Source: Methylophilus sp. | GTDB taxonomy: Bacteria; Pseudomonadota; Gammaproteobacteria; Burkholderiales; Methylophilaceae | NCBI RefSeq assembly: GCF_008015755.1 | Contig: NZ_SSGF01000014.1 | Coordinates: 1 to 49,070, forward strand | Direction of reading: 5' to 3' | DNA length: 49,070 nt | Shown: positions 47,833 through 49,070 of the stretch, in pieces | Layout of the letters: the number at the start of each line of letters is the position of its first letter | Numbering within the stretch: the first letter of the stretch is position 1 | Made by a program: the position numbers and the translations under genes | Notes under the pieces: model-generated | The model's input: the letters and a program-made list of their open reading frames with translations, nothing else | Told to the model about the DNA's origin: nothing | The model's database searches: none

Positions 47833-49070
47833 ATGCAAGTTAACAAAATCAAACTGGCCTTGGGTCTGGTAGCAGCATTGCCATTGGTTGCTTTCGCAGC
47901 AGCTGACCAAGAAGCCGCGTTGAAAGATGCCAACAACTGGGCACATCCACGTGGTCAACACAATAACAACGGTTACAGCGCCTTGGCACAAATCAACAAG
48001 GGCAACGTTAAAAACCTGAAAGCAGCTTGGACATTCGCAACCGGTGTAAACCGTGGTCACGAAGGTTCACCAGTTGTTGTTGGCAACATGATGTACGTTC
48101 ACACAGCTTTCCCAAACAACGTATACGCTTTGGATCTGAACGACAATCAAAAAATCGTTTGGTCTTATTTCCCAAAACAAGACCCAAGCGTTCAAGCAGT
48201 TCTGTGCTGTGACAACGTTTCTCGTGGTCTGGGCTACGGCGACGGTAAAATCTATCTGCAACAAAACGACGGTATGTTGGTTGCTTTAGATGCAAAAACC
48301 GGTGCTAAAGTATGGGATGTTAAAAACACCGATCCAAAAGTTGGTGCAACTAACACTAACGCGCCACACGTAATCAAAGACAAAGTATTGACCGGTTGCT
48401 CAGGTGCTGAGTTCGGCGTACGTTGCTTTATCGCTGCATACAACCTGAAAGACGGCTCTCTGGCATGGAAAGCTTTCTCTACAGGTCCAGACAGTGAAGT
48501 GATGATCGGTGCTGACTTCAACAAAGAAAACCCATCCTACAGCGCTCTGTCAGTTTACGAAGATGTAAACGGCGGTAACAAACAAGGTGGTTCTTTCAAA
48601 AAAGCAGCTAACGACAGCCTGAAAATTGGTGAAAAAGAACTGGGTACACGTACTTGGTTGAAACCACAAGCTGTTAAAGATGGCTGGCAACATGGTGGCG
48701 GTTCCGTATGGGGCTGGTGGCCATATGATGCACGTACAAACCTGGTTTACTACGGTACTGGTAACCCATCCGTATGGAACCCAGATGTACGTCCAGGCGA
48801 CAACAAATGGTCTATGACAATTTTTGCTCGTGATTTGGACACTGGCGTGGCTAAATGGGGCATGCAAATGACTCCACACGATGAGTGGGACTACGATGGT
48901 ATTAACGAAGTAATCCTGTTCGACAAAGGTGGCAAAACTTACGCATGGCACCATGACCGTAACGGTTTCATCTACACATGGAACGCACACAACGGTTCTT
49001 TAGTTGCTGCTGAAAAAGTACACCCATTCGTTAACTGGGCAACTGATGTTGACCTGAAAACAGGTGTGCC
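47833..49070 (+). CDS. xoxF: Lanthanide-dependent methanol dehydrogenase XoxF, N-terminal part (cut by window edge)
   Basis: The first 412 codons of a PQQ methanol dehydrogenase large subunit that oxidises methanol to formaldehyde (or further) in the periplasm, passing electrons to a cytochrome c. A signal peptide ends near AFAA (residue 22-23). The vicinal pair C125-C126 lies in VLCCDN; metal ligands E193 (GAEFGVRC) and N311 (GTGNP) and the catalytic D353 follow. D355, two residues after D353 (HDEWDYDG), is the extra Asp that marks the lanthanide-dependent XoxF class; MxaF has Ala there. The E193-N311 distance is 118 residues versus 84 in described enzymes, so about 34 residues are inserted. 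The clade might be XoxF4. GGAG precedes the ATG by 6 bases. Codon use looks like that of a highly expressed gene. Confidence 0.93.
   Translation, partial: MQVNKIKLALGLVAALPLVAFAAADQEAALKDANNWAHPRGQHNNNGYSALAQINKGNVKNLKAAWTFATGVNRGHEGSPVVVGNMMYVHTAFPNNVYALDLNDNQKIVWSYFPKQDPSVQAVLCCDNVSRGLGYGDGKIYLQQNDGMLVALDAKTGAKVWDVKNTDPKVGATNTNAPHVIKDKVLTGCSGAEFGVRCFIAAYNLKDGSLAWKAFSTGPDSEVMIGADFNKENPSYSALSVYEDVNGGNKQGGSFKKAANDSLKIGEKELGTRTWLKPQAVKDGWQHGGGSVWGWWPYDARTNLVYYGTGNPSVWNPDVRPGDNKWSMTIFARDLDTGVAKWGMQMTPHDEWDYDGINEVILFDKGGKTYAWHHDRNGFIYTWNAHNGSLVAAEKVHPFVNWATDVDLKTGV

Follow-up and report, generated by a model that had tools for sequence, protein, structure and literature searches.

A conserved two-part insertion between metal ligands in the XoxF4 methanol dehydrogenases of Methylophilaceae

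XoxF4 is the lanthanide methanol dehydrogenase of the Methylophilaceae, to which it is reported to be confined, and the closest described systems are XoxF4-1 and XoxF4-2 of Methylotenera mobilis (Huang 2018, PMC6028718). XoxF4-1 is approximately 70% identical to other XoxF4 proteins and approximately 50% identical to MxaF (PMC6028718). The protein analyzed here resembles these enzymes in its identity levels, in its restriction to Methylophilaceae and in its D-x-D motif, and it has its fold, four metal ligands and PQQ site in common with XoxF5 (6OC5/6OC6, 6DAM). It differs from XoxF5 in the distance between the Glu and Asn ligands, which is 84-88 residues in XoxF5, and phmmer matches between the two break at an insertion located between these ligands. 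With MxaF (Methylophilus W3A1, 1G72/4AAH) it shares the motifs that flank the insertion, DFNxxNPxY on the N-terminal side and LGTKTW on the C-terminal side, and MxaF groups with XoxF4 against XoxF5 in one of our trees (78 rows, see below); however, MxaF lacks the insertion and, being of the Ca type, has Ala in place of Asp355. MxaF also has an MxaI subunit. The insertion is genuine and runs through a whole clade of a known enzyme family. It appears not to have been described in the open-access literature that was searched, and in PMC6028718 the sole "insertion" mentioned concerns Ca2+. The conserved insert probably lies at the cofactor face of the enzyme.

The window, i.e. the whole stretch of 49,070 nucleotides analyzed here, is an entire contig (C40), from a genome of 2.75 Mb, and ends within the xoxF4 gene, in which we recognize the following features:

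47833..49068, + strand: xoxF4, 412 codons from the start (about two thirds of the gene); the open reading frame is cut by the end of contig and window
48397..48426, + strand: Cys189 and Cys198, bracketing Glu193; each present in 107 of 107 XoxF4 proteins
48409..48411, + strand: metal ligand Glu193, aligned with solved enzymes, the ligands of which are given in Table 1 of PMC11845868
48544..48630, + strand: first part of the insert, residues 238-266 (about 29; edges +/- a few residues), with the core ALSVYxDVNGGNKxGGSF and a variable linker; from alignments
48658..48672, + strand: insert part 2, LKPQA (276-280), directly before the predicted PQQ-floor Trp285; from alignments
48685..48687, + strand: Trp285, predicted PQQ-floor Trp; W in 106 of 107 XoxF4 proteins
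48763..48765, + strand: metal ligand Asn311; from alignment
48889..48897, + strand: catalytic Asp353 and lanthanide-specific Asp355 (D-Y-D); from alignment

Trp285 is presumably the PQQ-floor Trp, a role that we take over from solved methanol dehydrogenases. In a profile search the window protein matches PQQ methanol/ethanol dehydrogenases; its best PDB match is 6DAM, and it is 99% identical to the protein of Methylophilus sp. 42 (locus L039). On TIGR03075 it scores 406.8 bits against a curated cut-off of 480.05, the protein being truncated by the contig end, and two other XoxF4 copies of the same genome, both with the insertion, score above the cut-off with 624.9 bits (contig C36, locus L002) and 600.2 bits (C27, L003). 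The genome also contains one MxaF, which is without the insertion (C23, L001). The window protein has the D-x-D lanthanide motif together with the Glu and Asn ligands, as in XoxF4; Asp355 occupies the position at which MxaF has Ala; and its spacing is 118 rather than the 83-88 of XoxF5, from which both trees place the window protein or its XoxF4 relatives apart. The product is thus almost certainly of the XoxF4 type of Methylophilaceae, and is predicted from its sequence to be a PQQ- and lanthanide-dependent periplasmic methanol dehydrogenase with lanthanide-dependent methanol oxidation as its activity. The gene itself is an ordinary member of XoxF4 and no trait marks out this copy.

The initial annotation had placed Glu193 and Asn311 118 residues apart and Asn311 and Asp353 42 residues apart; the open reading frame and the alignment confirm both distances and add Asp355, and by alignment to solved enzymes the choice of Glu193 as ligand is correct. 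The value of 84 that it gave for described methanol dehydrogenases holds for MxaF 1H4I, XoxF2 4MAE and XoxF 6OC6, but not for XoxF5 6DAM (88) and XoxF1 7O6Z (86) (PMC11845868, Table 1). Similarly, the Asn-Asp distance of 42 that it called normal is found in the window protein but is not universal, being 43 in 4MAE and 55 in 7O6Z (PMC11845868), and the latter value implies a different insertion in XoxF1. The approximately 34 extra residues are real, but instead of one stretch covering about residues 225-275 the alignments resolve two inserts (238-266 and 276-280), so that, relative to MxaF, about 29 residues are added between NPxY and LGxxTW and 5 between LGxxTW and KDGW. The excess is 34 residues over relatives and 30 over some XoxF5, given that the XoxF5-like enzymes we fetched have spacings of either 83-84 or 88. 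The motif DFNKENPxY immediately ahead of the insertion is also present in MxaF, and the phmmer alignments to PDB sequences break at the insertion too.

Our alignment set comprised 164 distinct open reading frames of at least 500 residues from fetched loci, which are best matches rather than a random sample and include no XoxF1-3 of other phyla. Among these, 107 proteins with the ligands ENDD have a spacing of 116-118 (102 at 118, four at 117 and one at 116); the other spacings are 88 (20 proteins), 84 (21) and 83 (two), while 13 MxaF-like proteins (ENDA), all with Ala at the second Asp position, have 84 (12) or 85 (one), and one divergent protein without the ligands (L005) has 87. The labels XoxF4 and XoxF5 of the fetched sequences were assigned here from identity, motif and PMC6028718. 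All 107 XoxF4-like sequences carry the insertion, as does the window copy, and, with a spacing of 116-118 in 107 distinct sequences, it is neither a chance feature nor an assembly error. The first sorting used the spacing as the XoxF4 label; a second one, independent of the spacing, left out residues 226-290 and sorted the proteins by how identical their remainder is to the window protein; it yielded 107 proteins with at least 70.6% identity, all with spacings of 116-118, and 57 with at most 64.9%, all with 83-88. As identity outside the region gives the same 107 and 57 proteins, the split between XoxF4 and the remainder does not depend on the spacing. A spacing of the 118 type, which might have turned out to be common to most XoxF proteins, is absent from the non-XoxF4 enzymes examined (83-88).

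With the whole protein as query, matches were found in 185 of 187 Methylophilaceae genomes, and with the insertion peptide in 156 (108 of the 119 good ones). In the order sample the insertion peptide matched 13 of 399 genomes, all Methylophilaceae, and among the 33 non-family genomes with a whole-protein match, the best one per genome ended at residue 224-228. In the phylum sample (E limit 1e-60) the matches listed for the 35 non-family genomes end by residue 239. A match was obtained in 158 plasmid records (E <= 1e-60), in each case below 60% identity. The insertion peptide had no match in 31 of the 187 Methylophilaceae genomes; 13 of these were inspected, and nine contain XoxF4-like end fragments only and four (G183, G010, G090 and G091) none. 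Four of the fragments start at contig base 1-3, and for the others the short open frame suggests that they are cut; an intact XoxF4 without the insertion was not seen in these 13 genomes. A XoxF4 contig labelled as a Rhodoferax MAG (L088) is probably a misbinned Methylophilaceae contig.

In a tree of 61 rows from which the insertion columns had been removed (the window protein, 25 XoxF4, 22 XoxF5-like, i.e. every second of 43, and 13 MxaF), the window protein and the 25 XoxF4 rows form one side of a branch with support of 100/100, and the MxaF and the XoxF5-like rows each do likewise. A second tree of 78 rows with one distant outgroup row, from which the window protein, L039, L043 and L053 were left out, separates XoxF4 plus MxaF from XoxF5 (99/99); because of the very long branch of this outgroup, the root, and hence the position of MxaF as sister of XoxF4, is unsure. 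Within these trees, neither of which holds XoxF1-3 of other phyla, a single gain on the XoxF4 branch appears sufficient to explain the insertion. In total, alignment, tree and genome distribution back the early suggestion that the insertion marks a clade, XoxF4, and is common to Methylophilaceae.

The core of the insertion is nearly invariant. L239, S240, Y242, D244, G247-N249, G252, G253 and F255 are invariant in the 107 XoxF4 proteins, as are L270, G271, T274, W275 and L276-Q279, and A280 is found in 104. At 15 of the 18 positions of the core (238-255) conservation reaches at least 104 of 107; the linker (256-269) is variable. Mean conservation in an alignment of 51 sequences (51 of 80 loci, the remainder being near-copies or without a clear full-length frame) was 0.91 for residues 234-256, 0.70 for 257-268 and 0.99 for LKPQAV, the value across the mature protein being 0.93. 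By the signature GGNKxGG...LGxxTWLKPQ, XoxF4 can be told apart from the XoxF5-like and MxaF proteins examined, also where a gene is incomplete. Outside the insertion region 14 residues are XoxF4-specific, of which N73, L124 and N128 flank the GHEG and CC motifs. Cys189 and Cys198, which occur in 0% and 19% of the 43 XoxF5-like proteins and in 31% and 0% of the 13 MxaF proteins, could possibly form a XoxF4-only disulfide.

Two AlphaFold2 models, one built from 51 sequences (mean pLDDT 68.5, pTM 0.79) and one from 46 (75.0 and 0.83), both have a helix turn followed by two strands, i.e. a small hairpin, in the core of the insertion (234-237, 242-244 and 255-257 in the first model; 236-239, 244-247 and 256-259 in the second, numbering +2), with a pLDDT of 64-90 for this block. 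In both, LKPQA is mostly located within segments of pLDDT < 50. With moderate to low confidence, we suggest that the insertion may fold as a short helix turn and beta hairpin, continued by a variable linker and by an LKPQA step into the PQQ-floor Trp. In the first model Glu193 is located between the adjacent strands 184-190 and 199-204, and the insertion follows the next strand (210-215), before the next blade. In beta propellers, connections of these two kinds, within a blade as for Glu193 and from blade to blade, lie on one face. From the strand order and this general topology we infer that the insertion would belong to the connection leading from a blade's outer strand to the following blade, on the PQQ/metal face of the enzyme. 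A position between two propeller blades would fit an insertion in a conserved surface loop, which the initial annotation had named as support for its claim; the core is near-invariant and the linker varies. By sequence, no PDB structure with the insertion was found, the 65-residue insertion peptide alone giving no PDB match at E <= 10, and the best 15 rows of a Foldseek search with the first model are all chains of XoxF or MxaF with no more than 52% identity, without a XoxF4. Table 1 of PMC11845868 has no PDB entry for XoxF4, whereas PMC11996626 says in passing, citing its Table S1, that for XoxF4 and other types the coordination of lanthanides is confirmed by crystal structures. The conserved insert is a warning against models of XoxF4 that are based on XoxF5.

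In L039, xoxF4 is followed by genes for a family-3 solute-binding protein (xoxJ-like), two cytochromes c (Pfam) and a Pyr_redox_2 protein; the xox gene names in the neighbourhood were assigned in this analysis. In the genome of the window the cytochrome genes are located on contig C31, 1349 bases past the stop of a partial xoxF4, and because this distance matches the 1351 bases in L039, C31 probably continues C40. Positions 48682-49070 of the window overlap the start of C31 (L004) over 389 bases with 16 mismatches, 11 of them within 24 bases; as the overlap differs at 16 positions, a collapsed or mixed repeat is likely at the contig break.

The published kinetics cover two XoxF4 enzymes and one XoxF5: with methanol, Vmax is 0.65 +/- 0.56 U/mg for XoxF4-1, the error of which nearly equals its value, 0.78 +/- 0.30 U/mg for XoxF4-2 and 5.97 +/- 0.94 U/mg for XoxF5, and Km is similar, at 0.055, 0.042 and 0.039 mM, respectively (Huang 2018, PMC6028718). 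In the dye assay Vmax of the XoxF4 enzymes is about 8-9-fold below that of XoxF5 and, with large errors, similar across substrates, that of XoxF5 being uniform too, and all three enzymes lose approximately 50% of their activity in 24 h (PMC6028718). Since the Vmax of XoxF4 is similar across substrates, a limit after substrate oxidation would fit. The initial annotation had suggested that the insertion could change the partner cytochrome or metal access; the kinetics would be consistent with an influence on electron acceptors, but poor PQQ/lanthanide loading, instability or other XoxF4-specific residues are equally plausible causes of the low Vmax. Tentatively, we suggest that the insertion may cap PQQ and tune acceptor access: the hairpin would sit as a fixed lid or rim above the PQQ pocket and restrict the electron acceptors that reach PQQ, PQQ re-oxidation would be slow with small dyes while the dedicated cytochrome would still work, and the metal and catalytic residues would be unchanged. 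To a purely structural role we give an equal, likewise limited, probability: the hairpin would pack on the propeller or the dimer interface, stabilize the fold and replace contacts lost via small deletions, leaving partners unaffected. Compatible with this role, XoxF4 lacks 4 + 2 residues present in both XoxF5-like and MxaF proteins and a further 5 + 3 present in XoxF5-like ones (nine XoxF4, 17 XoxF5-like and three MxaF rows), the Gly-rich invariant core suits a tightly packed hairpin, and XoxF4 copies without adjacent partner genes retain the insertion; however, XoxF5, without the insertion, is also reported as a homodimer (PMC6028718, Table 3), and three XoxF4-specific residues adjoin PQQ-pocket motifs. 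A broader form of the acceptor-side reading, which we consider rather doubtful, is that the insertion, possibly with the Cys189-Cys198 pair and the altered residues beside the vicinal disulfide, would constitute an acceptor gate over PQQ in a clade-wide rebuild of the redox side. If an acceptor gate exists, dye assays would underestimate one of the principal oxidizers of methanol in aquatic habitats; the low dye-assay efficiency of XoxF4 has been considered hard to reconcile with the success of Methylophilaceae in methanol competition (PMC6028718).

A location on the PQQ face, as topology suggests, would also suit a docking surface through which the hairpin contacts a XoxF4 partner, either a XoxG-type cytochrome or XoxJ. 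In 45 of the 55 loci longer than 11 kb, a xoxJ-like gene and then a cytochrome gene lie downstream of xoxF4 on the same strand, but in nine neither gene is adjacent (one has the cytochrome only), and because these nine carry the insertion there is no tight genetic link between insertion and partner genes; moreover, Gly and uncharged residues make up most of the invariant part, and we consider such a dock unlikely. PMC6028718 reports a wider lanthanide range for XoxF4-1 (La-Gd) than for XoxF5 (La-Nd); that this is due to a change of the metal site by the insertion, which sits between two ligands in sequence, is still less probable. All four ligands are unchanged, XoxF4-2 has a range of La-Sm (PMC6028718) even though the presumed XoxF4-2 copies L003 and L118, assigned as such here, have the insertion, and the range of XoxF4-1 is called similar to that of XoxF2 (PMC6028718), the spacing of which is 84 (PMC11845868). 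With regard to its origin, the insertion resembles GatB (amidotransferase subunit B) over approximately 38 residues, and capture from gatB was considered: in a class search the insertion peptide matched 28 of 369 genomes (E <= 1e-3), among them that of the window, and of seven other loci fetched from this search six encode GatB (NCBIfam) and L179 gave no such protein. A GatB model was scored on 84 distinct insertion peptides, excluding the divergent copies L192-L201; its six sequences were picked for likeness, which inflates the top scores, and only the fall across copies was used. The score falls from 24.7 bits for the window to approximately 2-6 bits for L002 (a divergent XoxF4), the Methylobacillus copies L104 and L114 and several marine copies, L086 and L116 among them, and Pfam gave no GatB family for the insertion peptide at E <= 10, in a search in which HMMER filters drop most weak matches. 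The likeness, strongest in the window's own group and near nil in divergent copies, is recent and probably due to chance, and on the fall in score towards divergent XoxF4 and the Pfam result we reject an origin from gatB as scarcely credible.

XoxF genes are also present in IMG/VR records. Five of six such loci encode XoxF4 with a spacing of 118 (L226, L227 / L232, L228, L230 and L231), and a search of the GenBank phage collection found no XoxF4. The 17.7 kb contig of L227 / L232 has matches to tail-spike, virion structural, ribonucleotide reductase and exonuclease proteins as well as a PAAR gene, and given these phage-type matches on the same contig the XoxF4 of L232 is probably carried by a phage. 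A terminase (PF03237) was not found in three of these IMG/VR records, and for L226 and L228 a host origin is possible. In L228 (2980-7771), a phage or host contig, xoxF4 is followed by a gene for a 946-residue protein that matches the PHROG DmsA and looks like a formate dehydrogenase. The putatively viral L229 (2938-5304) has a XoxF5-like gene with a spacing of 88, followed by a 108-residue CxxCH gene that is cytochrome-like by eye and gave no PHROG match. Methanol dehydrogenase in phages of Methylophilaceae has been reported from Lake Baikal (PMC7678222).
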